A DNA stretch of 64,000 bases. Origin: Rhodoferax sp. (GTDB lineage: Bacteria; Pseudomonadota; Gammaproteobacteria; Burkholderiales; Burkholderiaceae_C). The stretch is taken from positions 248,001 to 312,000 of the forward strand of contig NZ_JABBPD010000008.1 of assembly GCF_012927445.1 (NCBI RefSeq), written 5' to 3'. The notes under the pieces are model-generated. The model was not told the DNA's origin and did no database searches. It saw only the letters and a program-made list of their open reading frames with translations. The first letter of the stretch is position 1; each line of letters starts with the position of its first letter. This document shows, one piece after another, positions 2,260 through 17,315 of the stretch. A program made the translations under genes and the position numbers.

Positions 2260-3318
2260 ATGACCATTCTTCTCGCGCCCATGGAGGGTTTGCTGGACTT
2301 CGTGCTGCGCGACATTCTGACCCGTGTGGGCGGGGTCGACCGTTGCGTTTCTGAATTCATCCGCGTTACCAATACCTTGCTGCCGGATCGGGCTTTCATT
2401 CGTGAAATGCCGGAGTTGCTGAATGGCGGGCGAACTTTGGCCGGTGTGCCGGTGCGGGCGCAGTTGCTGGGGTCTGACGCTGTTTGCCTGGCGGAAAACG
2501 CCGCTTGTCTGGCGGCACTGGGGCCCGACGGCATTGACCTGAATTTTGGTTGTCCGGCCAAGGTGGTGAACCGTCATGGCGGTGGCGCCACCTTGCTGGA
2601 CGAGCCGGAGCTGCTGGTGGCCATCGTGTCGGCGGTTCGCCGCGCCGTGCCCGCCCACATGCCGGTTTCGGCCAAGATGCGCCTGGGAGTGAACGACGAC
2701 TCGCGCGCGGTGGAGTGTGCCCTGGCGATTGAAAGCGGCGGCGCCACTGAACTGGTGGTGCATGCCCGCACCAAGGCTGACGCTTACCGTCCACCCGCTT
2801 ACTGGGCGCGCATCGCGGACATTCGTGTTGCCGTGCGTATTCCGGTGGTGGCCAATGGCGAAATCTGGAATGTGCAGGATGCCTTGCGTTGCCGCGAGCT
2901 GTCCGGCTGCGATAAGCTGATGCTGGGCCGGGGCATGGTCACCGATCCGGGGCTGGCCTTGGCCATCCAGGCTGCCACGGCAAAGTCAGGACAGAATGGC
3001 GAGCGCTTCGTGGGGGATGCCTCAGCTTCGCCCTTGCGCATGTGTGGGCCAGCGAACTCCGGCCTGAGTTGGCAGACGTTGTTGCCCCACATCGCCGATT
3101 TTTGGCAACTGGTGTGTGCCCGGCTGGAGCGCCGCCAGCAAGCTGGCCGACTCAAGCAATGGCTCAACTTCTTGCGTCGTTGTTACCCGGAGGCCGAGTC
3201 GGCCTATATGGCGCTGCGCGCCATCAGTGAACCCGCCGTGATCGACCAGTGGCTGGCCGCCCAGGGTTTCGGTCGCGACACATTCGCCGATTCAAGTGGT
3301 AATAGTGACCGCCATTAG
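2260..3318 (+). CDS. dusC: tRNA-dihydrouridine(16) synthase
   Basis: A 352-residue FMN-dependent tRNA-dihydrouridine synthase. It opens with the Dus flavin-site motif MTILLAPMEGLLDFVLRD and carries the catalytic-cysteine signature IDLNFGCPAKVVNRHGGG with Cys98 as the general acid, plus VSAKMRLGV, VVHARTKAD and the phosphate-binding IPVVANGEI and LMLGRGM. The sequence HARTKADAYRPPAYW and the length fit DusC (U16 of tRNA) better than DusA or DusB. An in-frame upstream extension to 2203 has no homologous sequence, so the ATG at 2260 is used. Confidence 0.9.
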   Translation: MTILLAPMEGLLDFVLRDILTRVGGVDRCVSEFIRVTNTLLPDRAFIREMPELLNGGRTLAGVPVRAQLLGSDAVCLAENAACLAALGPDGIDLNFGCPAKVVNRHGGGATLLDEPELLVAIVSAVRRAVPAHMPVSAKMRLGVNDDSRAVECALAIESGGATELVVHARTKADAYRPPAYWARIADIRVAVRIPVVANGEIWNVQDALRCRELSGCDKLMLGRGMVTDPGLALAIQAATAKSGQNGERFVGDASASPLRMCGPANSGLSWQTLLPHIADFWQLVCARLERRQQAGRLKQWLNFLRRCYPEAESAYMALRAISEPAVIDQWLAAQGFGRDTFADSSGNSDRH

Positions 3319-3356
3319 ATTTACAGTACGTTCAACCTATTTTTGAGAAATACCCT

Positions 3357-4463
3357 ATGCAAACCAAAGCAGCAGTGGCCTGGAAAGCCGGCGCACCCCT
3401 GACCATTGAAACCGTTGACCTTGAAGGCCCCCGATTTGGCGAAGTGCTGGTCGAAATCAAGGCCACCGGTATTTGCCATACCGATTACTACACGCTCTCC
3501 GGCGCCGACCCGGAAGGCATTTTCCCTGCGATTCTGGGCCACGAAGGCGCCGGCATCGTGGTCGATGTGGGGCCGGGTGTCACTACGCTGAAAAAGGGCG
3601 ACCACGTTATTCCGCTGTACACCCCCGAGTGCCGCCAGTGCAAGTACTGCTTGAGCCGCAAAACCAATTTGTGCCAGCTCATTCGGGGCACGCAAGGCAA
3701 GGGTCTGATGCCCGACGCCACCAGCCGTTTCAGCCTGAACGGTGAGCCCATCTTTCATTACATGGGCACCAGCACGTTCAGCAACTTCACCGTGGTGCCC
3801 GAGATTGCGCTGGCCAAGATTCGCAAGGACGCGCCGTTTGACAAGGTCTGCTACATCGGTTGTGGCGTGACGACCGGGCTCGGTGCCGTGCTGTTTTCCG
3901 CCAAGGTGGAGGCCGGGGCGAATGTCGTGGTGTTCGGCTTGGGCGGCATTGGCCTGAACGTGATTCAGGGCGCCAAGATGGTGGGGGCCGACAAGATCAT
4001 CGGCGTGGACATCAACCCCGCGCGCCAGGCGATGGCGCGCAAGTTCGGCATGACGCACTTTATCAACCCGAAAGAGGTCGAGAACGTGGTGGACGCCATT
4101 GTGCAACTGACCGACGGCGGTGCGGATTACAGCTTCGAGTGCATTGGCAACACAGACGTCATGCGCCAGGCGCTGGAGTGCACGCACAAAGGCTGGGGCC
4201 GTAGCCTGATCATCGGCGTGGCCGCGGCTGGCGCCGAGATCAGCACGCGTCCGTTCCAGTTGGTCACCGGCCGCAAATGGGAAGGCTCGGCTTTTGGCGG
4301 CGCACGGGGCCGCACCGACGTGCCCAAAATTGTGGACTGGTACATGGAAGGCAAGATCAACATCGATGATCTGATCACCCACACCATGCCTTTGGCCGAC
4401 ATCAACAAGGGCTTTGAGTTGATGAAGAGCGGTGAATCGATTCGCGGCGTGGTATTGTTTTAA
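3357..4463 (+). CDS. frmA: S-(hydroxymethyl)glutathione dehydrogenase (class III alcohol dehydrogenase)
   Basis: A 368-residue zinc-dependent dehydrogenase that oxidises S-hydroxymethylglutathione, the adduct of formaldehyde and glutathione. The catalytic zinc region ATGICHTDYYTLSG, the GHEGAGIVVDVG motif, the four-cysteine structural zinc lobe (CRQCKYCLSRKTNLC) and the NAD fold VVFGLGGIGLNVIQGAK are all present, and the length is that of the class III family. It is followed 59 bp later by S-formylglutathione hydrolase, giving the complete two-step formaldehyde-to-formate route. A dispersed repeat element fills the spacer between the two genes. Confidence 0.95.
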   Translation: MQTKAAVAWKAGAPLTIETVDLEGPRFGEVLVEIKATGICHTDYYTLSGADPEGIFPAILGHEGAGIVVDVGPGVTTLKKGDHVIPLYTPECRQCKYCLSRKTNLCQLIRGTQGKGLMPDATSRFSLNGEPIFHYMGTSTFSNFTVVPEIALAKIRKDAPFDKVCYIGCGVTTGLGAVLFSAKVEAGANVVVFGLGGIGLNVIQGAKMVGADKIIGVDINPARQAMARKFGMTHFINPKEVENVVDAIVQLTDGGADYSFECIGNTDVMRQALECTHKGWGRSLIIGVAAAGAEISTRPFQLVTGRKWEGSAFGGARGRTDVPKIVDWYMEGKINIDDLITHTMPLADINKGFELMKSGESIRGVVLF

Positions 4464-4470
4464 CGAAATA

Positions 4471-4521
4471 TGCTGCTAGCCCTTACTGGATAAGCGCTGG
4501 CAGCTATTAAATAAGTAGCTG
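4471..4521 (-). repeat. Dispersed repeat, family A, intergenic copy (frmA-frmB spacer)
   Basis: Read on the minus strand this is GCTACTTATTTAATAGCTGC, then AGCGCTTATCC and AGTAAGGGCTAGCAG. It shares the layout of the other family A copies in the window: an imperfect inverted GCTA-TAGC block, a GCGC-like middle, then an (A)CGGGGGCT-like block. It occupies nearly the whole spacer up to the frmB start. Confidence 0.6.
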
Positions 4522-4522
4522 A

Positions 4523-5401
4523 ATGAACTCTGATTCCCTTGAATTGTTAAGCGAGCACGCCTGTTTTGGCGGCGTGCAGCGCTTTTACCAGCACGCCTCC
4601 ACCGAGATTGGTTTGCCCATGCGGTTTTCGGTGTATCTGCCGCCGCAAGCGGCGCATGGCAAAGTGCCGGCCGTGCTGTATCTGGCGGGCCTGACCTGCA
4701 CCGAAGAAACTTTCATGGCCAAGGCCGGGGCGCAACGCGTGGCGGCCGAGTTGGGGCTGGCATTGATCACGCCCGACACCAGCCCGCGCGGTGCCGGCGT
4801 GCCGGGCGAAACCGAGAGTTGGGACTTTGGGGTGGGCGCCGGTTTCTACCTGGATGCCACTCAGTCGCCGTGGTCCACGCATTACCGGATGGAGAGTTAC
4901 ATCACCGCCGAACTGTTGCCGCTGCTGGGGCAAGCGTTGGCGGTGGACCTCCAGCGGCTGGGTATTTTTGGCCATTCCATGGGTGGCCATGGGGCGCTGA
5001 CACTGGCGCTTAAACATCCAGCGTTGTTCAAGTCGGTCTCCGCCTTTGCCCCGATTTGTGCGCCCTCGCAGTGCCCCTGGGGACACAAGGCGTTGACCGG
5101 CTATCTCGGCGCCAACCCCGCCGCCTGGGTCGCGCACGATGCCAGCGCCTTGATGCATGAATGCCGCGCGGCACCTTATCCGGACGGCATCCTGATCGAT
5201 CAAGGCTTGGCCGATAAGTTTTTGCCCAGCCAGTTGCACCCCCATCTGTTTGAAGCCGCTTGCGCCAAGGTGGGGCAACCGCTGACACTGCGCATGCATG
5301 CCGGCTATGACCACGGTTACTACTTCATCTCGACCTTTGTCGCTGACCATCTGGCGCATCACGCGCAGACGCTGCTGGCGACGTCGCCCACACGTGCTTA
5401 G
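4523..5401 (+). CDS. frmB: S-formylglutathione hydrolase
   Basis: A 292-residue alpha/beta-hydrolase of the esterase D family that releases formate and glutathione from S-formylglutathione. The nucleophile elbow GHSMGGHGALTLAL is present, with LYLAGLTCTEETFMAKAGAQR, DTSPRGAGVPGE and the late GYDHGYYFIS histidine motif all typical of the family. It sits directly behind frmA, so the two are probably one operon for formaldehyde detoxification. The ATG at 4523 gives the expected N-terminus (LELLSEHACFGGVQRFYQH). Confidence 0.95.
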   Translation: MNSDSLELLSEHACFGGVQRFYQHASTEIGLPMRFSVYLPPQAAHGKVPAVLYLAGLTCTEETFMAKAGAQRVAAELGLALITPDTSPRGAGVPGETESWDFGVGAGFYLDATQSPWSTHYRMESYITAELLPLLGQALAVDLQRLGIFGHSMGGHGALTLALKHPALFKSVSAFAPICAPSQCPWGHKALTGYLGANPAAWVAHDASALMHECRAAPYPDGILIDQGLADKFLPSQLHPHLFEAACAKVGQPLTLRMHAGYDHGYYFISTFVADHLAHHAQTLLATSPTRA

Positions 5402-5439
5402 CCTGCTGCCTTCGTATCACCGCATACCAGGAACGAACC

Positions 5440-6348
5440 ATGACCATTGATTTCAAAGGCCGCGTGGCCATCGTGACCGGCGCCGGTGGTGGACTGGGTC
5501 GTCAACACGCCCTGGCTCTTGCCGCGCGTGGCGCTAAAGTGCTGGTGAACGACTTGGGCGGCACACGAGACGGCTCTGGCGGCTCAGTGACTGCGGCTGA
5601 AGCGGTGGTGGCCGAAATCAGGAATGCCGGCGGTGAGGCCATGGCCAATAACGCATCGGTAACCGACTTTTCTGCTGTGCAAGCCATGGTCCAGCAGGTT
5701 GTTGATGCCTGGGGTCGGGTGGATATTCTGGTGAATAACGCCGGCATCCTCCGTGACAAAAGCTTTGCCAAGATGGAACTGGCAGACTTCGAACTGGTGA
5801 TGAGCGTGCACCTGATGGGCGCCGTGCATTGCAGCAAGGCGGTGTGGGCCATCATGAATGAGCAGAAGTACGGTCGCATCGTCATGACCACCTCGTCGAG
5901 CGGCTTGTTCGGCAACTTTGGGCAATCCAACTATGGCGCGGCCAAGATGGCGCTGGTGGGCTTGATGCAGACGCTGTCGCTTGAAGGCGCCAAAAACGAC
6001 ATTCGCGTCAATTGCCTGGCCCCCACCGCCGCCACTCGCATGACCGAGGGTCTGATGCCCGAGGCGGTACTGGCCGCCCTCAAGCCCGAGGCCGTGGTGC
6101 CCGCCATGCTGGTACTGGCGTCGCAAGATGCGCCCAACCGTACCATTCTGTGCGCAGGTGCCGGTACCTTTGAGGCCGCCCTGACGCAAGGCGTCTGGAT
6201 TGGCACCGATGTCCTGGCGCCTGAACGGCTGGCCGAGCGCTTGGCCGATGTCACCGATCGTGCGGGTGAAACCGTGCCGCACAGCGGCGCTGCGCAGGGC
6301 AGCAACGAGGTGACTAAAGCGATGGCAAATGCGACATGGGCTGCCTGA
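5440..6348 (+). CDS. SDR dehydrogenase of the MFE-2 / 3-hydroxyacyl-CoA dehydrogenase type
   Basis: A 302-residue short-chain dehydrogenase. The NAD(P) motif VTGAGGGLGRQHA, the loop VLVNDLGGTRDGSG, NNAGIL and the active-site run SSSGLFGNFGQSNYGAAK (Ser and Tyr-x3-Lys) are visible. The VNDLGG loop and the roughly 300-residue length match the dehydrogenase unit of peroxisomal multifunctional enzyme type 2 and its bacterial relatives, so a 3-hydroxyacyl-CoA substrate is likely but not shown. A Shine-Dalgarno-like AGGAACG precedes the ATG. It lies 38 bp after frmB and may be read with it. Confidence 0.8.
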   Translation: MTIDFKGRVAIVTGAGGGLGRQHALALAARGAKVLVNDLGGTRDGSGGSVTAAEAVVAEIRNAGGEAMANNASVTDFSAVQAMVQQVVDAWGRVDILVNNAGILRDKSFAKMELADFELVMSVHLMGAVHCSKAVWAIMNEQKYGRIVMTTSSSGLFGNFGQSNYGAAKMALVGLMQTLSLEGAKNDIRVNCLAPTAATRMTEGLMPEAVLAALKPEAVVPAMLVLASQDAPNRTILCAGAGTFEAALTQGVWIGTDVLAPERLAERLADVTDRAGETVPHSGAAQGSNEVTKAMANATWAA

Positions 6349-6817: not shown

Positions 6818-9800
6818 GTGCAAAAGCGTGATGAGGAAATTCTTTATTCGGCATCAGACCTTGTCAATTACCTTGAGTGTGAGCACCTCACTGCGCTTGA
6901 CCTGATTGACCTCGAAACACCGCTCCCAAAAACCAAAGACAGTGACCAAGCCAAACTGATCCAGGACAAGGGTTATGCCCATGAGGCAGATTTCCTTGCG
7001 GTGCTCAAAGCCCGGCATTCATCGCTGATCGATATTGCAGCCATCGGTGGCAATCTGGAGCAAAAGATCGCCAACACCCTTCAGGCGATGCGTGATGGTT
7101 TTGAAATAATTTTTCAGGCGACCTTGCGTGATGGCAGCTTGATTGGTCATGCCGATTTTCTGCGCAAAGTGTCCCGACCGTCAGAACTCGGTGACTGGAG
7201 CTACGAGGTCATGGATACCAAGTTGGCACGGAGCACGAAAGCCAAGTTCATCATCCAGCTGGGGTTTTACTCAGATTTGGTCGCTAAAGCCCAAGGACTT
7301 GCGCCGCTTCAAATGCATGTCGTCCTCGGGGACCGGACGGAAGTTGCATACCGCTACGCCGATTACGCGCGCTACCTGAAACTCGTGACTGAGCGCTTTC
7401 TCGAACGCGTCGCAGGTCAGGTCGTGGAAACCTATCCCGTCCCCTGCGAAAAATGCGACTTGTGCAAATGGAGCGGCCTGTGTGAAGACAAGCGTGTCAA
7501 GGATGACCACCTCTGCCAGGTGGCGAATATCAGTCAACTGCAAATCAAAAAGCTTCAGTCAGCAGGCGTAACAACATTGGCAGCTCTGGGCACGCTGTCG
7601 GCGACTGAGACTCGAATCCAGAAAATGACCGCTGAGACGCTTGAAAAACTGCATCGCCAAGCTCGACTGCAGCTGCTGGCGCGGCAAACCGGACAGAACC
7701 AACTCGAATTATTGTCACAGGAAGGCAACGCGGCCCGAGGATTTTTACGCTTGCCGCGGCCGAACGCGGGTGACCTATTTTTTGACATGGAAGGCAACCC
7801 ACTCGAAGAAGGTGGGCTTGAGTACCTCTTTGGTCTCTATTTTTTCCAGGAAGGAAAACCTGAGTTCAAGGCATTCTGGGGTCATAACCGGGCGGAGGAA
7901 AAGCGCGCTTTTGAAGGCTTCATGGATTTTGTGACGGCCTGGCTGCGCAAGCACCCGGCGGCCCATATCTACCATTACGCCCATTACGAGCAGACTGCGC
8001 TCAAAAAACTCATGTCGTTGCACGGCACCCGCGAGACCGAGGTGGACAAGCTGCTACGGGCACAAAAGCTGGTGGATCTCTACAAAGTCGTTCGTGAGGG
8101 GATTCGCGTTTCTGAACCCCGCTATTCGATCAAAAACATTGAACACTTTTACCTGGAGCGTCGCTCTGGCGACGTCACCAACGCTGGTGCCAGCATCGTC
8201 TATTACGAGCGCTGGAAAGTGACCGGTGACCCGCAACTGCTGAAAGACATTGAGGACTACAACTTTGACGATGTCCGCTCAACCTACGAATTGCAGCAGT
8301 GGCTCTTGTCATTGCGTCCAGCCGATCTACCGTGGGCGCACGACGCAGTTGGGACGCAGGACGCAACGACTCCGGATGTGGGAGAACTCACCCCAGAAGA
8401 ACAACGGTTGATCCCCTATCGAGAACAATTGACCGACACCTTGCCCGAGGACCGAAAAGTTTGGGGTCAGAACGAACATCTGCAGGAATTGACCTACCAG
8501 CTGCTCGATTTCCACCGACGGGCCGCCAAACCAGAGTGGTGGGCCATGTTTTCTCGCATGGAAATGGCGGAAGATGAGCTGTTGGATGATGGCGAATGCC
8601 TGGCAGGCTTGACGCCAGACCCGGCCCATCCGCCAAAGCTGGAAAAACGGTCCATCATTCACACCTATTTATTTCCTGAGCAGGGATCGAAACTCAAGAC
8701 TGGAGATAGCGCCGCCATCACGCAGACGGCTGAGCCGGTGCGGGAACTCAAGGTCGATGACGACAACCGCCGAGTCAGTTTCAAACGAACCGCAAACAAG
8801 GCGCCATTGCCGGATTGCGTTTGCATTGGCCCCGGCATGCCAGTCTCAACGAAAGCGCTGATCGAAGCAGTTTTCCGTTTTGGAGACAGCATTGTGAATG
8901 GCAGTGGTGACTATCCAGCGATTGAAGCCGTACTGACGCAGTCATTGCCGAAAATTAGGGGCAATGCAGTCGGCAGCCCTGTCGTGCCTGTGGATAGCGC
9001 GGCGTTACCGCACATCATCGAGGCGATTGCCAATCTGGATAGCAGCTATCTCTTTGTACAGGGCCCACCAGGTGCAGGCAAGACCTATACCGGCTCCCAC
9101 GTCATCGTTGCCTTGCTCAAGAAAGGCTACCGGGTTGGCGTGTCTTCAAACAGTCACAAGGCGATTAACAACTTGCTTCAGGGCGTGGTGAAGGTGGCCA
9201 AGGAGCAGCAATACGTTTTCAAGGGTGCCAAAAAATCAACCACAGGAAAAACTGATTCGTACTTTGATGGCGAATTCATTGAAGACGTCTTCAACAATGA
9301 AGACATCTGGGGTGCCTTCGGCAGCGATTCAGAATACCGCCTGATTGCCGGCACCGCCTGGCTGTTTGCCGACGCCGAAATGGACCAGCAGTTGGACTAC
9401 ATTTTTGTGGACGAAGCGGGTCAGGTGGCGTTGGCCAACTTGGTCGCCATGGGCACCAGCGCCAAGAACATTGTGCTGCTGGGTGATCAGATGCAATTGG
9501 GGCAACCCATTCAAGGCGTGCATCCGGGGCGCTCAGGCGAGTCCTCGCTTGAATACCTGCTCAACGGCATGGCGACCATTCCGGCCGAACGTGGCATTTT
9601 CCTCGGCACGACGTGGCGCATGCACCCCGATGTTTGCAGGTTTATCTCCGATGCGGTTTATGACGGCCGACTGGCGCCGGAACCCAACAATGCGAATCAG
9701 ACATTGATCCTCGGTGACGACGCTCATCCGGCCTTGATGCCTACCGGCCTGCGGTATGTGCCGATTGAACACGATGCCTGTTCGCAGCGCAGCCAGGAGG

Positions 9801-10237
9801 AGGCTGACCTCGTTCTGGCCTTGGTGACTAGCCTGCTGCAGCAGCGCTACCGCGACAAGCACGGACAGGAGCACCCGATGACGCTGAACGACATCCTTGT
9901 CGTGGCGCCGTACAACATGCAGGTCAACTTGTTGAAGCAGGTGCTGCCGGATGGCACGCGGGTTGGCACCGTCGATAAATTTCAGGGACAAGAGGCGGAA
10001 GCGGTCATCGTGTCGATGGCCACCTCCAGCGGGGACTATTTGCCGAGGAATATTGAGTTTCTGTACAGCAAGAACCGGCTAAACGTCGCCATCTCGCGCG
10101 CCAAGTGTCTAGCGATCTTCATTGCCAATCCGGCATTGATGGCCATTCGGTGCTCCACGCCGGAAGAGATGGCGCTGGTGAACACCTTGTGCTGGGTGCA
10201 GGAAGTGGGAGTGTCACCGGCACAAGCGATTTCGTAG
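6818..10237 (+). CDS. TM0106-type RecB-like nuclease fused to SF1 helicase
   Basis: A 1139-residue protein. The N-terminal third is a RecB-family nuclease: ECEHLTALDL near residue 20, metal-site Asp113 in GHADFL, and Asp133-Thr-Lys135 as the D/E-x-K core. A Cys cluster (Cys210, 213, 216, 222) probably holds an Fe-S or zinc centre as in Cas4/AddB-type nucleases. Next comes an RNase H-like segment (LFFDMEGNPL, EYLFGLYFF). The C-terminal part is a DNA2/UPF1-like helicase: Walker A GPPGAGKT at 749-756, Walker B Asp865-Glu866 (VDEAGQ), VGTVDKFQGQEAE and NRLNVAISRAK. Such proteins are recurrent in defence islands; here it lies 118 bp ahead of the McrBC block. The chosen start follows CAGGGAGCG. Target is unknown. 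Confidence 0.85.
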   Translation: MQKRDEEILYSASDLVNYLECEHLTALDLIDLETPLPKTKDSDQAKLIQDKGYAHEADFLAVLKARHSSLIDIAAIGGNLEQKIANTLQAMRDGFEIIFQATLRDGSLIGHADFLRKVSRPSELGDWSYEVMDTKLARSTKAKFIIQLGFYSDLVAKAQGLAPLQMHVVLGDRTEVAYRYADYARYLKLVTERFLERVAGQVVETYPVPCEKCDLCKWSGLCEDKRVKDDHLCQVANISQLQIKKLQSAGVTTLAALGTLSATETRIQKMTAETLEKLHRQARLQLLARQTGQNQLELLSQEGNAARGFLRLPRPNAGDLFFDMEGNPLEEGGLEYLFGLYFFQEGKPEFKAFWGHNRAEEKRAFEGFMDFVTAWLRKHPAAHIYHYAHYEQTALKKLMSLHGTRETEVDKLLRAQKLVDLYKVVREGIRVSEPRYSIKNIEHFYLERRSGDVTNAGASIVYYERWKVTGDPQLLKDIEDYNFDDVRSTYELQQWLLSLRPADLPWAHDAVGTQDATTPDVGELTPEEQRLIPYREQLTDTLPEDRKVWGQNEHLQELTYQLLDFHRRAAKPEWWAMFSRMEMAEDELLDDGECLAGLTPDPAHPPKLEKRSIIHTYLFPEQGSKLKTGDSAAITQTAEPVRELKVDDDNRRVSFKRTANKAPLPDCVCIGPGMPVSTKALIEAVFRFGDSIVNGSGDYPAIEAVLTQSLPKIRGNAVGSPVVPVDSAALPHIIEAIANLDSSYLFVQGPPGAGKTYTGSHVIVALLKKGYRVGVSSNSHKAINNLLQGVVKVAKEQQYVFKGAKKSTTGKTDSYFDGEFIEDVFNNEDIWGAFGSDSEYRLIAGTAWLFADAEMDQQLDYIFVDEAGQVALANLVAMGTSAKNIVLLGDQMQLGQPIQGVHPGRSGESSLEYLLNGMATIPAERGIFLGTTWRMHPDVCRFISDAVYDGRLAPEPNNANQTLILGDDAHPALMPTGLRYVPIEHDACSQRSQEEADLVLALVTSLLQQRYRDKHGQEHPMTLNDILVVAPYNMQVNLLKQVLPDGTRVGTVDKFQGQEAEAVIVSMATSSGDYLPRNIEFLYSKNRLNVAISRAKCLAIFIANPALMAIRCSTPEEMALVNTLCWVQEVGVSPAQAIS

Positions 10238-10355
10238 CCAAAAATAAATTTCTAGATTGTGTGATTTCGCCTATGTACGCCCTGTAATCTTGGGATTCTT
10301 TTCAAGTTGCATTGATTGAAGCATCGCCAATGCAGACTGCTTTTTAGGAGAACGG

Positions 10356-10682
10356 ATGAAGATCGCAAAAATTAGGATTACCCAAGGAAACTTGAACAAC
10401 AATCATTTTTACTTAACGTCATGTCTGTCAATGTTTCCTGCCGACTCCATTGGCGGTGGCAATGAAAAGGCACAAGCAAGAAAGTTGCTCAAGATCAAGC
10501 CGCGTGGGGATGAACAACTGGAAACAGACATTGATGGGACAAAGAATATTTTCAGAAAACGTGGGTGGGTCGGTGCAATGTTTCGGCATTCGTCTGCAAA
10601 GATTGGCGACTACGTCTTCATCGAAGAAAAAAATGACGGGTCATATGAGATATGGGTTGATGCATCAAAGGGAGTGGTATGA
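10356..10682 (+). CDS. Small protein, possible B3/EcoRII-N-like DNA-reader domain
   Basis: A 108-residue protein with no catalytic motif. It reads as a compact beta-rich domain: HFYLTSCLSMFPADSIGG, then LLKIKPRGDEQLETDIDG, NIFRKRGWVGAMF, and a closing GDYVFIEEKNDGSYEIWV. The pattern (FPADxIGG, T/ETDIDG, FRxRxWV, GDxVxIE...Y) reminds me of the pseudobarrel recognition domains of B3/EcoRII-N type that are attached to restriction and methylation enzymes; this is from memory and not verified. Its stop overlaps the mcrB start in an ATGA junction, so the two are translationally coupled. The best guess is a separate DNA-recognition subunit for the McrBC enzyme. AGGAG precedes the ATG. Confidence 0.6.
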   Translation: MKIAKIRITQGNLNNNHFYLTSCLSMFPADSIGGGNEKAQARKLLKIKPRGDEQLETDIDGTKNIFRKRGWVGAMFRHSSAKIGDYVFIEEKNDGSYEIWVDASKGVV

Positions 10683-12070
10683 ATTTGGATCAAAAACTGA
10701 CTGCTGAAGAAGCACACGAATATTTTCAAAAGCGATTTACACCGATAAACGAAATAACCAAAAAAATGGCGTGTTTCGAAACAGATGGAGGTCGTCAGAT
10801 TGGTCTCAATCTCGAAGGTAAGAAAGTCACTATGTTTGTGGAGCCAGGCGATTGGACGTTGATTGTTCCCGGAGTCGAACTAATTAGGACTTATGAAAAA
10901 AGAGAAAACGACTCGGATAAGGAAGGTAGGCATCATCATCTGAAATCTAATGCACCTCGTCTTTCCGCTGAATATCCTGCAATGTATCTGAGCATTCCAA
11001 CGATGGCTGTGCTTGCCGCATTCTGCGATGCCTATGGCGAATCAAAAGCACCACCTGCCGGGCAATCACCGTCGGAATCCACGCAAACACAAAGAATCAA
11101 TAGTACCGAACGGAACCTCTGCATGAACACAATCCTTTATGGTCCACCTGGCACTGGTAAAACTTACAGAACCACCGCGCTCGCCGTCAAAATGTGCGAA
11201 AAAGATGTGGCAGTGCCCGAGAAGAAATTTGAGTTTGCAGATGACAAAGCCTTGAAGGCCCGCTACGAAGAACTCAGAACAGAGGGGCGAATCAGCTTTG
11301 TCACTTTTCATCAGTCGTATGGTTACGAAGACTTTATTGAAGGACTTCGTCCAGAATTGAAAGATGGTCAGGTTTCTTACCGGGTTCGTCCCGGCATTTT
11401 TCGGGAAGCTTGCGCCGCAGCAGCCAAATCACCCTCTCAGAACCATGTCCTCATCATTGATGAAATCAACCGCGCCAATATCTCCAAGGTCTTCGGAGAG
11501 TTAATCACTCTGCTGGAACCCGACAAGCGAGAGGGCGCAATCAACGCCGTTACGGTAAAGCTCCCCTATTCTGGTGACTCATTCAACGTGCCTTCAAATC
11601 TGTATGTGATCGGCACCATGAATACTGCGGATCGATCAATTGCCTTGCTTGACACGGCGCTGAGGCGGCGTTTTGAATTTGAGGAAATGCAGCCGGACTA
11701 TGAAGCTTTGTCCAAGGACCCGGTTGCAGGGGTGGATATCCGCGCCATGTTGCGAGCCATGAATGACCGAATTGAATACCTCTATGACCGCGATCACAAC
11801 ATTGGCCATGCATATTTCATACATGCGAAAACGCTCGCCGACCTCGATGCGGTCTTCCGGCGCAAGGTCATCCCCTTGTTGCAGGAATACTTCTACGAAA
11901 ACTGGTCGAAAGTTCTGCTGGTCTTGAACGAAAAAGGTGGTGGCTTTATCAATGTCAACAACGATCTCCCCAAGGGACTGGAGTCGATAAATGAGGGGTT
12001 TGAGCCGCGACCACGTTATCAAATAATGCGCGAATTCAATGCGTCTGCCTACAGAAACATCTATCAGTAA
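10679..12070 (+). CDS. mcrB: McrB-family AAA+ GTPase motor
   Basis: A 463-residue AAA+ protein of the McrB clade, the NTP-driven motor of modification-dependent restriction. Walker A GPPGTGKT lies at 155-162, Walker B LIIDEIN at 258-264, and the McrB hallmark GTMNTADRS at 312-320, followed by ALLDTALRRRFEF. The first 148 residues are a private N-terminal domain (FVEPGDWTLIVPGVELI; YLSIPTMAVLAAFCDAYG) that I do not recognise and that differs from the E. coli McrB 5-methylcytosine reader. The start overlaps the small upstream gene by 4 bases and mcrC begins 5 bp after the stop, so the three form one operon. Base composition is visibly AT-richer than the flanking housekeeping genes. Confidence 0.9.
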   Translation: MNLDQKLTAEEAHEYFQKRFTPINEITKKMACFETDGGRQIGLNLEGKKVTMFVEPGDWTLIVPGVELIRTYEKRENDSDKEGRHHHLKSNAPRLSAEYPAMYLSIPTMAVLAAFCDAYGESKAPPAGQSPSESTQTQRINSTERNLCMNTILYGPPGTGKTYRTTALAVKMCEKDVAVPEKKFEFADDKALKARYEELRTEGRISFVTFHQSYGYEDFIEGLRPELKDGQVSYRVRPGIFREACAAAAKSPSQNHVLIIDEINRANISKVFGELITLLEPDKREGAINAVTVKLPYSGDSFNVPSNLYVIGTMNTADRSIALLDTALRRRFEFEEMQPDYEALSKDPVAGVDIRAMLRAMNDRIEYLYDRDHNIGHAYFIHAKTLADLDAVFRRKVIPLLQEYFYENWSKVLLVLNEKGGGFINVNNDLPKGLESINEGFEPRPRYQIMREFNASAYRNIYQ

Positions 12071-12075
12071 CTGAC

Positions 12076-13395
12076 GTGGCACTCATATCAATCCAGGAGT
12101 ACGGGAAACTCCATGTTGGCGAGTTTGATCCTGATCACCCCGCTGTTTTTCCATCCCAGGCAGCGATACTGACGAGTCTCAAGCCAACGTATGGGTTCGA
12201 AGTGTTTAAGTACGTCAATGGGACAACGATATCTGCGCAGCAGTATGTTGGCGCAGTTCAACTCGGCCCGCACACTATCGAAGTCCTCCCAAAAGTTGAT
12301 GGCAATGCTGTCAATGTTCGGCGCAATCTGGTGGCCATGTTGGGCGTCGCGCTCGACCTTGAAATTAGCGAAGGTGATGTCGCCCGAGTAGCTCTGCAAA
12401 ACCACGGCATCCTTGAAATTTTTGTCCGATTATTTTGTGACAAGCTCTTTGTTCAAATTCACAAGGGCTTGGTCAGACGATATGCGGGCCGTGAGGAAAA
12501 TCTGACGGTACTCCGTGGAAAACTGGGCCTGGCGGAACAGATTCGCCTGAACGCAGCCAATCCAGAGCGACTGTTTTGCCGCTTTGATGAATTCCAGGAG
12601 GACAACCCTCTCAATCAAGTCCTGAAGTCTGCAATTCGCATGCTCTTGAAGGTCTCGCGAGAGCTTAGGAATCAGCGGCAATTGGCGGAATTGATGTTGG
12701 CTTTCGAGGGTGTATCGGACGCCCCTAGGGAATCATTGCCGTGGACTCGTATCGTGTTTGATCGTTTGAGTGAGCGCTACCGGCCATGTTTCAAGCTGGC
12801 GGAGCTATTTCTTAAAAACACACCCCCCGACGTGACAGGTGGTGCAGCTCAAGGGTTTTCATTGTTCTTCGATATGAATGCACTGTTCGAGGAGTACATC
12901 GGTCGTCTCGCGATCCGTATTTTTACGCCATTGGGGTTCCGAATAACACTGCAAGGCCCGCAACAATATCTTGCCTTTAATGAGAATAACGAGAGACCGG
13001 CTTTTGCGCTGAAGCCGGATGTCGTTGGCAGCCTGAATTCAAAGACTGCCTGGATTTTGGATACCAAGTGGAAACAGCTTTCCATTGAAGAGGCGAAGGA
13101 TGGGGTAGCCCAGTCAGACCTTTATCAGATGTACGCCTACGCAAACTGCTACCGGTGCCCAGATGTTGTGTTGTTATATCCCCATCACAAAGAGTTGGGG
13201 GCCGATGCTGGGGTTCGTGGAAGCTACTTGCTCAACCCGTGGGTACACGAAATAGAAAGCAACGAAGTTAGGCGGGTTCGGGTAGCCACCATAAATCTGG
13301 AAAACCTGAAGACCGTTCCCGCACAGTTGAGTCGAATTTTTCTGCCTGAAGACGTGGCATCAACGGCGGCAATTACTTCGGGAGCAGCAGGTTGA
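12076..13395 (+). CDS. mcrC: McrC-family nuclease subunit
   Basis: A 439-residue partner of McrB. The N-terminal half has the McrC features VGAVQLGPHTIEVLPKV, RRNLVAMLGVALDL and LTVLRGKLGLAEQIRLN, with DEFQEDNPLNQVLKSAIRML in the middle. The C-terminal PD-(D/E)xK nuclease core is visible as Lys313-Pro-Asp315 and, after a strand, Asp329-Thr-Lys331 (WILDTKWK), followed by DLYQMYAYA. All catalytic residues appear intact, so the enzyme should be active. It starts with GTG five bases after mcrB. Confidence 0.92.
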   Translation: MALISIQEYGKLHVGEFDPDHPAVFPSQAAILTSLKPTYGFEVFKYVNGTTISAQQYVGAVQLGPHTIEVLPKVDGNAVNVRRNLVAMLGVALDLEISEGDVARVALQNHGILEIFVRLFCDKLFVQIHKGLVRRYAGREENLTVLRGKLGLAEQIRLNAANPERLFCRFDEFQEDNPLNQVLKSAIRMLLKVSRELRNQRQLAELMLAFEGVSDAPRESLPWTRIVFDRLSERYRPCFKLAELFLKNTPPDVTGGAAQGFSLFFDMNALFEEYIGRLAIRIFTPLGFRITLQGPQQYLAFNENNERPAFALKPDVVGSLNSKTAWILDTKWKQLSIEEAKDGVAQSDLYQMYAYANCYRCPDVVLLYPHHKELGADAGVRGSYLLNPWVHEIESNEVRRVRVATINLENLKTVPAQLSRIFLPEDVASTAAITSGAAG

Positions 13396-13462
13396 ACGCC
13401 CATCTTTGTCATGCAATGAACTCTTTTCCTCAACTATTCCTCTCCGTTGCGGGCATCTGACG

Positions 13463-14101
13463 ATGGGAATTATTTGGGGTAACCGAAAACTGTTTTCGAG
13501 GAATGACCGAGGTGTCCGGCTTGCGTTAAAGCATCCCCTGCTGGTGAACCGCCCCGTTATCGGACGTGGCGCTTACTCCGTTATTCTGGGCGGCGAAGCA
13601 TCGGTTTTCAAGCTCACCATGGATGGTGCCGCCTACGCTTTAGCTGAGCAGCAGCAGTCGTCGTGGCGAAGTTCTGCCTTGCCGGAAATTCGGGGGCTCC
13701 ACGGCACGGTCGGCGTGATCGACTGTGGTGTGCCGCTCTATCTTTTTGAAATGGAACATTTGGACCGGCTGACGGTGGGCAGCGCGGAACGCAAAACCTG
13801 TCTGGCCATCGCGCGGCAGTTGCGCCCCTTCTACCAAGATGGAATGACCTCATCCGAGCGAATGCGACATGTCGGTGCGCGCCAGTCGGACACATCGCTG
13901 GCTCAGGGCCTTGAGCTTCTGGCTGGCTTTTTGGAACCACGATGGCCCGCGGTCGATCTCGATTTGCACAGCGCCAATTTCATGCGGCGCCCCAAAACAG
14001 GCGAAGCGGTTATCGCCGATCCATTCATGGATATGGAAACTCGTACCCTTGCCCTAAAACACTATGCGCTGGGTTTGCCTGCGGGTACGGCCATTTTGTA
14101 A
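13463..14101 (+). CDS. Kinase-fold protein, phage-like, linked to McrBC
   Basis: A 212-residue protein (ATG at 13463; the frame is open back to a TTG at 13406). It carries a reduced protein-kinase-like core: a glycine loop IGRGAYSVILGG (residues 33-44), Lys50 in ASVFKL as the ATP lysine, a catalytic loop VDLDLHSANFMRR with Asp167 and Asn172, and ADPF with Asp186 in the DFG position. The DLH-x2-N-F/M order resembles the small kinase-like proteins of T7-like podophages and aminoglycoside-kinase folds. There is no signal or membrane segment. It starts 67 bp after mcrC in the same direction. It may phosphorylate a host or phage target, or be a phage-derived remnant; substrate unknown. Confidence 0.6.
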   Translation: MGIIWGNRKLFSRNDRGVRLALKHPLLVNRPVIGRGAYSVILGGEASVFKLTMDGAAYALAEQQQSSWRSSALPEIRGLHGTVGVIDCGVPLYLFEMEHLDRLTVGSAERKTCLAIARQLRPFYQDGMTSSERMRHVGARQSDTSLAQGLELLAGFLEPRWPAVDLDLHSANFMRRPKTGEAVIADPFMDMETRTLALKHYALGLPAGTAIL

Positions 14102-14408: not shown

Positions 14409-17315
14409 TTACGGGTAGTCGCTGACCGGCACGCAAGCGCAGAACAAATTGCGGTCGCCGTACACGTTGTCAACGCGCCCAACCGGTGGCCAGTATTTGA
14501 CCTGTTTCAGCGTCGCCAGCGGAAAGGCGCCGACTTCACGCGAGTAGGGCCGATCCCACGCTTCGCCCATCAAGGAGGCCGCCGTATGTGGCGCGTGCTT
14601 CAGCGGGTTGTTGTCCTGCGGCCATTCGCCACGCTCCACTTTCGCAATTTCCTCGCGGATGGCGATCATGGCGTCGATGAAGCGGTCCAGCTCGTCCAGC
14701 GTTTCGCTCTCGGTCGGCTCCACCATCAGCGTGCCGGGCACCGGAAAACTCAGCGTGGGGGCGTGAAAACCGTAGTCCATCAGGCGCTTGGCCACGTCTT
14801 CGGCCGAGATACCGGCCGCGCCGCCACTGCTTTCCTTCAAGGGTCGCAAGTCAAGGATGCACTCGTGTGCGACGTGGCCGTTGGCGCTGGCGTACAGCGT
14901 GGGGTAGTGCTTTTTCAGCCGGGCACTGATGTAGTTGGCGCTCAGGATGGCGACTTCGGTGGCGGCCTGCAGGCCTTCCGGACCCATCATGCGGCAGTAC
15001 ATCCAGCTGATCGGCAACACAGCGGCATTGCCGAGCGGTGCCGCTGAAATGGCGCCGACACCGTTGACGGGCAGGCCGCCGGTGGCGTGCCCTGGCAGGT
15101 AGGGCACCAAGTCGGCCACCACGCACACCGGGCCGACACCGGGGCCGCCGCCGCCGTGCGGAATGCAGAAGGTTTTGTGCAGGTTCAGGTGGCTGACGTC
15201 GCCGCCGAACTCGCCGGGGGCCGCCACGCCCACCAGCGCATTCATGTTGGCGCCGTCCACGTAAACGCGGCCACCGTGGGCGTGCACCAAGTTGCACAGT
15301 TCCTTGACGCTGGTCTCGAACACGCCGTGCGTGCTGGGGTAGGTGATCATCACCGCCGCCAGATTGGCGCTGTGCAGTTCGCACTTGGCTTGCATGTCCG
15401 CCATATCGACATTGCCCTGCGCGTCGCAGGCGGTCACCACCACGGTCAGGCCTGCCATGTGGGCGCTGGCCGGGTTGGTGCCGTGGGCGCTGGAGGGAAT
15501 CAGGCAGATGTTGCGGTGGCCCTGGCCTTGGGCTTCATGGTAGGCCCGGATCACGAGCAGGCCGGCGTATTCGCCCTGCGAACCGGCGTTGGGCTGCAGG
15601 CTGATGCCGGCGTAACCGGTGGCCTGGCACAACCAGGCGCGCAGTTGCTCGTCCAGTTCGCGGTAGCCCTGCAACTGGTCGTGCGGTGCAAACGGGTGCA
15701 GCGACGCAAACTCGGGCCAGGTGATGGGGATCATCTCGCTGGTGGCGTTGAGTTTCATGGTGCAACTGCCCAGCGGGATCATGCTGCGGTCCAGCGCCAG
15801 GTCTTTGTCACTCAGGCGCCGGATGTAACGCAGCATGCCGGTTTCGGAGTGGTGCGTGTTGAACACCGGGTGTGTCAAAAAGCTGCTTTCACGGCGCAAG
15901 GCGGTGGGGATCAGGGACTCGATGCCCTTCTCGAAGTCACTGACCTTCGGCGGCGTTTGCCCGTCGTTGGCAAAGAAGGTCCAGAGTTGTTCAATGTTGT
16001 CGCGGGTGGTGGTTTCATCCAGCGACACGCTCACGCATTCTTTAGAGATAAATCGAAGGTTGGCCCCCGCCGAATGGGCGCGACTAGCTATTAAATTTGT
16101 AGCATCTGCGGTGTGAACGGTGAGTGTGTCAAACGCGCTGCTGTGGGCCAGCGCAAAGCCCATGTCCTGCAAACCGCGCGCCAGCACCGCGGTGTAAGCC
16201 GCTACGCGCTGGGCGATGCGTTTCAGGCCTTGCGGGCCGTGGTAGACGGCATACATGCTGGCCACTACCGCTGGCAGCACCTGCGCGGTGCAGATGTTGG
16301 AAGTCGCCTTTTCGCGGCGAATGTGCTGCTCGCGGGTTTGCAGCGCCAGCCGGTAAGTGGGGTTGCCGTGCACGTCCACACTAACGCCGACCAGGCGGCC
16401 GGGCATGGAGCGCTTGAACTCGTCGCGGCACGCCAGGTAGGCCGCATGCGGGCCACCGTTGCACATCGGCATGCCAAAGCGCTGCGTGGTGCCGACCACG
16501 ATGTCGGCATTCCACTCGCCCGGTGGCACCAGCAACGTGAGTGCCAGCAAATCGGCGGCCACCACGAACGCGGCTTGCTTGGCGTGCACCTGGGCCACAT
16601 CCGGGCGCAGGTCTGCAATCTGACCACTGGTAGACGGATATTGGGCCAGCACGCCAAAATAGTCGCGCCCCGCCAGCCAGCCATGCCACTGCTCGATCGA
16701 CTGCGCTACCAGCACTTCGATACCGAGCGGCGCGGCGCGTGTCTGAATGACTTCAACCGTTTGCGGATGGCAGTCAAGGCCAACGATGAAGGTGTTGCTT
16801 TTGCTTTTGACGCTGCGTTTGGCCAGCGTCATGGCTTCGGCCGCCGCCGTGGCCTCGTCCAGCATGGAGGCATTGGCCATCGGCATGCCGGTCAGGTCCA
16901 TGACCATGGTCTGGAAGTTCACCAGCGCTTCCATGCGGCCCTGACTGATCTCGGCCTGGTAGGGCGTGTAGGCGGTGTACCAGGCGGGGTTTTCCAGGAT
17001 GTTGCGCAGAATGACGCCCGGCGTGTGGGTGTCGTAATAGCCTTGACCGATGTAGCTTTTAAAGAGCTGGTTTTTAGATGCAATCGCCTTGAGTTCGGCC
17101 AGGGCTGCCGCCTCGGTCACCGCCGCCGGAATCGCCATGTGGCTGCTGCGGGCGATGGAGCGGGGCACGATGCCGTCGATCAGTTCGCGCCGTGAGGTCG
17201 AGCCCACGACCTGGAGCATCAAGGCCTCGTCCGCTTCATTCACACCAATGTGGCGAGCGATGAATTCAGAGGTGTTTTCGAGTTCGCTTAACGGCTGGGC
17301 GGATTGCATCAACAT
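14409..17315 (-). CDS. gcvP: Glycine dehydrogenase (aminomethyl-transferring), P protein
   Basis: A 968-residue pyridoxal-phosphate enzyme that decarboxylates glycine and passes the aminomethyl group to GcvH. The long single-chain length, the N-terminal [13 protein letters not shown], and the PLP-lysine region [19 protein letters not shown] are diagnostic. A ribosome site (AGGAA, 8 bases) favours the ATG at 17315. It is the last gene of gcvT-gcvH-gcvP. Within it, bases 16060-16108 are a dispersed-repeat copy encoding the segment around [19 protein letters not shown], in the C-terminal half's linker region. Confidence 0.97.
16060..16108 (+). repeat. Dispersed repeat, family A, copy inside gcvP
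   Basis: On the plus strand a GGCCCCCG block is followed by GGGCGCGACTAGCTATTAAA and TTTGTAGCATCTGC. The order matches the intergenic copy at 37441-37491. It is read through in frame by gcvP on the minus strand. Confidence 0.6.

Follow-up and report, generated by a model that had tools for sequence, protein, structure and literature searches.

The question raised by this locus is whether five consecutive genes form one defence system or a stack of independent ones. The window, a 64,000-nucleotide stretch of Rhodoferax sp. (NZ_JABBPD010000008.1, positions 248,001–312,000, forward strand), contains five open reading frames (ORFs) between an SDR gene (5440–6348) and gcvP (14409–17315, - strand). 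As the original prediction had it, all five run in the same direction, on the + strand, and they encode a TM0106-type helicase-nuclease, a small protein of 108 amino acids (aa), McrB, McrC and a kinase-like protein. That prediction allowed for either a single system with sensing, cutting and kinase arms or several stacked systems. The genes look like a three-gene core, made up of the 108-aa protein as DNA reader with McrB and McrC, beside two stacked neighbours, rather than one five-part system. The sensing arm is supported, a kinase arm is not, and the helicase-nuclease appears to be optional. We give a probability of roughly 0.7 to the core being a McrBC-type restriction system in which the DNA-reading domain is a separate gene.

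In the usual description McrB is a single polypeptide, into which the target-recognition domain is fused or inserted. B3 domains act as gene regulators in plants, and those of BfiI, NgoAVII, UbaLAI and EcoRII are parts of type II enzymes. The small gene (10356–10682, + strand) encodes a stand-alone protein for which no family match was found in Pfam, PADLOC, NCBIfam or PHROGs and nothing significant was found by sequence in the PDB. Since these sequence-only routes gave no significant match, the fold was settled by a structure model. The AlphaFold2 model, with a predicted local distance difference test score (pLDDT) of 89, has a B3 DNA-binding fold across the whole domain; its top Foldseek match is 6c5d, the DNA-reading N-domain of the McrB-like LlaJI.R1, and plant B3 transcription factors are also among the best structural matches. 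Pfam B3 (PF02362) matched only one of 12 family members, at a non-significant E of 0.11; E-values for Pfam B3 were only 0.11–0.15, and a single match reached 12.4 bits where the cut-off is 30.1. A Pfam B3 scan of 75 genomes of the class gave zero matches but was uninformative, as control genomes were likewise silent. By the fold of its model the protein is a B3 domain, but by the Pfam result it is not a member of Pfam B3. In the first seven aligned sequences NL-x-NNHFYL, GG-x-N, R-x-R and GD are among the invariant positions, and with all twelve aligned there are only six invariant columns, which include both arginines of R-x-R. On its predicted fold the protein reads as the target-recognition subunit of McrBC in detached form, standing alone beside the nuclease genes whereas in the four type II enzymes the B3 domain lies within the enzyme. 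No description of a stand-alone B3 reader with McrBC was found among the listed titles and abstract beginnings of the open-licence literature, which is no proof of absence.

The connection between this domain and McrBC comes from relatives at other loci (labels beginning with L and G denote the relatives' loci and genomes compared). The McrB of L026 is an 879-aa protein consisting of a DUF3427 stretch, the small domain at residues 202–301 and an AAA+ domain, and McrC is encoded next to it. Scored with a profile built without L026, this McrB reached 24.2 bits and 2000 shuffled proteins at most 4.5; the 12 best rows included not one of the seven remaining McrBs. At a second locus (L023, also labelled L050) McrB (848 aa), McrC (452 aa) and then a 108-aa homologue as its own gene follow one another on the same strand. 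The domain is therefore found elsewhere inside McrB or after McrC, which upholds the sensing role. Six genomes were found to carry the small domain; McrC was present in two of them, both times at the small-domain locus, and in 7/149 other genomes of a phylum sample, G767 being counted in both sets. Against our interpretation it must be said that defence genes cluster, so that a comparison of these two proportions with chance overstates the link. The fusion read in the L026 sequence is stronger evidence for the link than the co-occurrence counts.

The partner genes carry the features of the McrBC family. McrB (10679–12070, + strand, 463 aa) matches AAA_5 (2.9e-17) and has Walker A at residue 155, an FHQ motif at 207, Walker B at 257 and MNTADR, a canonical NxxD motif. 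McrC (12076–13395, + strand, 439 aa) matches PF10117 (2.3e-79) and has a PD...DxK motif at residue 314, of the PD-(D/E)xK type. The nearest solved relatives are McrB and McrC in 6ut3–6ut8 (McrB against 6ut3, 1.7e-62; McrC against 6ut5_G, 9.3e-28), described as McrBC from T. gammatolerans (PMC7680126). From the FHQ motif to Walker B the gap is 44 residues in the window McrB and in that of L026, each of them linked to the small domain, and 153–238 residues in 6/8 McrBs compared. The McrB of L023 has both an insert and the neighbouring small gene. McrB GTPase domains are described as often carrying inserts, which are suggested to be specificity domains (PMC11090510). By eye, the insert within the AAA+ domain of the L023, L028, L029 and L038 McrBs (gap 237–238) is EVE/PUA-like, and it is without counterpart in the window McrB.

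The N-terminal domain of McrB (10679–11077, + strand, ∼125 aa), noted earlier as unrecognised, remains so in Pfam, PADLOC and NCBIfam. A distant relative (27.4% identity, E 2e-3) lies in a 970-aa McrB frame on an Acinetobacter plasmid (L027, 5356–8268), adjoining methyltransferase and helicase genes; the annotated start of that gene, 6241, omits ∼295 open-frame residues including most of the relative. Using the Acinetobacter McrB as query led to an A. baumannii plasmid McrB adjoining type I genes. Two marginal matches in 369 genomes of the class, besides the source genome, contained internal stops and were dropped, and a single-sequence structure model of the domain alone had a pLDDT of 40 and was not used. 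The domain may be an additional reader or may serve for docking. Relatives of the window McrB were not found in viral contigs. Among the 40 best of 324 plasmid records matching it is a Klebsiella McrB, and this plasmid mcrBC pair is flanked by two IS26 copies (L029, 87–9676).

The middle three genes are coupled as predicted, an ATGA overlap joining the small gene to mcrB and 5 bp separating mcrB from mcrC. Their GC content, overall and at third codon positions, is 0.431/0.468 for the small gene, 0.477/0.502 for mcrB and 0.510/0.541 for mcrC, compared with 0.551/0.649 for the helicase-nuclease gene, 0.571/0.615 for the kinase-like gene (counted from 13463) and 0.60–0.64/0.72–0.83 for six flanking genes, above all five island genes. 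The shared low GC, like the coupling, is confined to the middle three genes. The same-genus genome G284 retains the order gcvT-gcvH-gcvP followed by SDR, and its gcvP–SDR gap contains just two ORFs, of 411 and 176 aa, neither similar to any window ORF. Because G284 has just these two unrelated ORFs at the same site, the five genes form an accessory island. In G121, of the same genus, gcvP is followed by other genes, and G214, also of this genus, gave only a 31-base gcvP match, uninformative for the site. No tRNA was found beside the island in the window scan. Promoter and terminator scans of the window gave sites no more numerous than in shuffles, and therefore do not set the bounds of the operon. 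Gene order, predicted fold, motifs, the fusion and neighbour evidence and the distinct composition of the core are thus the observations on which our interpretation is based.

In known systems McrB is described as forming GTP-driven hexamers and McrC as cutting, with a reader domain selecting the DNA (PMC7680126, PMC11090510). In the proposed core the subunits would associate in trans. The 108-aa B3-fold protein would bind the target DNA, recognising a particular sequence or else a modified base, and would recruit the McrB ring; McrB would then hydrolyse GTP and translocate and McrC would cut, presumably as a defence against phage. Coupled translation, through the ATGA overlap and the 5-bp gap, would balance the amounts of the three subunits.

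The core has likenesses to several known systems. It shares with McrBC of E. coli K-12, a type IV system, a McrB GTPase with NxxD and a McrC PD-(D/E)xK nuclease. K-12 McrB is described as reading 5-methylcytosine (5mC) through a fused DUF3578 domain (PMC11090510), whereas the Pfam scan found no DUF3578 match in the island proteins. The CoCoNuTs, as described, have an NxD motif and coiled coils, with some accessory domains fused in one type and encoded as separate genes in others (PMC11090510). They resemble the core in being McrBC-derived with accessory domains fused or separate, but membership of the window McrB was rejected, as its motif is NxxD (MNTADR) and not NxD. The closest parallel in the reader is LlaJI (R1.LlaJI/R2.LlaJI), which likewise has a McrB-type GTPase and a McrC-type nuclease with a B3-fold reader. 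The B3 domain forms the N-terminus of R1 in LlaJI, whereas in the window it is a separate gene; in L026 it is fused. Judged from the model, McrBC with a detached B3 reader is a variation on known McrBC, in an ordinary stacked defence island.

The likeness to LlaJI raises the question of what the core would recognise. It might be a LlaJI-like type II system acting on an unmodified site, with its methyltransferase encoded elsewhere. The reader of LlaJI.R1 is the closest solved structure to the 108-aa model, and the genome outside the window, searched with PF00145 and PF01555, has two C5- and four N6/N4-methyltransferase loci. However, the LlaJI cassette is described as carrying two 5mC-methyltransferases (PMC1459862), while none of the five island proteins matched a methyltransferase in Pfam, PADLOC or NCBIfam. 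PF00145 and PF01555 have no match in the window (other methyltransferase families were not searched genome-wide), and along the contig the nearest match is ∼320 kb away from the five genes. Since the island comes with no methyltransferase, modification-dependent, type IV-like recognition is somewhat more likely, and the LlaJI-like version of the restriction system is possible but doubtful.

Instead of being the targeting subunit, the 108-aa protein might regulate transcription of the operon or act as a brake on McrBC. The rank of plant B3 transcription factors among the structural matches fits this, as does the position of the small gene as first of the coupled trio, although in L023 it is the last. 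The relatives bear on this. Among 299 genomes sampled from the family the protein is in the source genome only, a scan of genome contigs gave six loci, and profile searches found relatives in 5/397 other genomes of a phylum sample and in one further genome of a 240-genome sample of the class of G767. None was found in phages or viral contigs. A Bradyrhizobium plasmid homologue (43.9% identity) lies in the order WYL-helicase-ASCH-small-hypothetical-ATPase-DUF1156-DUF499, the ASCH match (E 0.007) being under the Pfam cut-off. L005, L008 and L024 have fusions of the small domain with an ASCH-type domain; only in L024 is ASCH over the cut-off (E 2e-4), and in L005 and L008 it is assigned by similarity to the Bradyrhizobium gene. 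In L024 the fusion gene follows genes for HsdR, HsdM, HsdS and GmrSD_N, all on one strand. In L006 the small domain follows an RNase_T exonuclease within one fused protein, and a DUF4011 helicase-nuclease is encoded next to it; L004 and L007, read by eye, apparently have a similar arrangement with no single intact frame. In L009, near a contig end, the match is split across two frames, and no defence partner was recognised in L022, L025 or L049, the neighbours of L049 having been compared with 12 reference proteins only. For these other loci a chosen part of the neighbouring genes was scanned for families. Counted by partner, and omitting L003, a duplicate of L002, the 13 other loci comprise four with an ASCH-type gene or domain, three with an exonuclease, two with McrBC and four with none recognised. 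That the domain occurs within McrB, as part of ASCH-type proteins and after an exonuclease fits effector targeting better than promoter binding, and we regard the regulator or brake as improbable.

Upstream of the proposed core lies the gene for the TM0106-type RecB-like nuclease and superfamily 1 helicase (6818–10237, + strand, 1139 aa from a GTG start). The protein matches TIGR03491 (1.4e-97; 327.5 bits against a cut-off of 97.45), confirming the gene identity first assigned, and has AAA_11/AAA_12 domains. Its plasmid matches were taken from the 20 best of 233 records, of which eight neighbourhoods were examined; one (H62) was picked for sharing a record with a McrB match, so that the sample is biased, and the plasmid gene tables are incomplete. 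On a Croceicoccus plasmid the helicase-nuclease is directly upstream of McrB-McrC, interrupted by an insertion sequence, and its last frame shares 4 bp with mcrB. Of the seven other plasmid neighbourhoods, one (in Caballeronia) contained a DUF2357 protein, two had ubiquitin-like operons and one a DUF4011 protein, and the remaining three had none of these. DUF2357 is described as the McrC N-terminal domain family (PMC11090510). At L050 the helicase-nuclease is ∼2.7 kb from McrB on the opposite strand, with the small gene also present. The helicase-nuclease was found in 5/149 other genomes of the phylum sample used for McrC, and McrC in one of those five. The suggestion that the helicase might always be apart from McrBC does not hold, as two other loci have both side by side. 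Because it is beside McrBC there but also beside unrelated systems, the helicase-nuclease is, judged from its neighbourhoods, an optional partner of McrBC, which could process the cut DNA. Two plasmid loci (L041, 3600–10333; L045, 6971–12166) have TM0106-type nuclease-helicases adjoining multiubiquitin, ThiF and DUF6527 operons. Beside the helicase-nuclease of L050 (G767) are ORFs (2945–5646, - strand) reading like ZorA/ZorB (MotAB-like), suggesting, by reading, a Zorya-type neighbour. No paper joining the TM0106 nuclease with 'defense' was found in the open-licence literature, the spelling 'defence' not being covered.

Downstream, the kinase-like gene (13406–14101, + strand) encodes 231 aa if read from TTG, or 212 aa if the start is the ATG at 13463. 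Pfam, PADLOC and NCBIfam gave nothing matching the 231-aa protein. PHROGs gave phrog_3809 (4.7e-10), a family without known function, and a weak match to the kinase family phrog_15752 (E 0.0037 over 26 residues only). A viral-contig relative (53% identity over 38 residues) lies between ORFs read as terminase subunits, among phage-like ORFs. A relative in the same genome is on contig C5, and the only McrC match of the genome is in the window. No relatives were found in plasmids or in phages. A weak match in G277 was dropped as chance, since it overlaps, on the opposite strand, an ORF read as aldehyde dehydrogenase. The protein reads as a member of a phage-type family, a passenger or an independent module. 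Its relatives lie apart from McrBC, which speaks against a kinase arm, though they are few and the evidence is weak.

The two outer genes thus look like separate arrivals or stacked modules. A single five-gene system with the helicase-nuclease and kinase as essential arms, in keeping with the shared strand and with the helicase-nuclease being near McrBC or DUF2357 in Croceicoccus, L050 and Caballeronia, was rejected as very improbable on the neighbour and composition evidence, as the helicase-nuclease also accompanies other systems, only one of the five other genomes with it in the phylum sample has McrC, such relatives of the kinase-like protein as were found lie away from McrBC, and the composition of both neighbours is unlike that of the core.

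Returning to the core with its separate reader, the varied partners of the 108-aa protein tentatively suggest, at somewhat less than even odds, a wider picture in which this protein founds a family of portable bacterial B3 readers, separate or fused, which plug into differing effectors: McrBC, ASCH-type proteins next to GmrSD and type I genes, a system with DUF499 and DUF1156, and an exonuclease with a DUF4011 helicase as neighbour. Within McrBC such a reader might be an exchangeable specificity subunit acting in trans, as HsdS is for type I enzymes. If this is true, a reader family for which no model was found in Pfam, NCBIfam, PADLOC or PHROGs would be common to several defence systems, and could be used for finding new restriction systems. 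A reader acting in trans would make the specificity of McrBC exchangeable, and this would be testable through the swap of one small gene.

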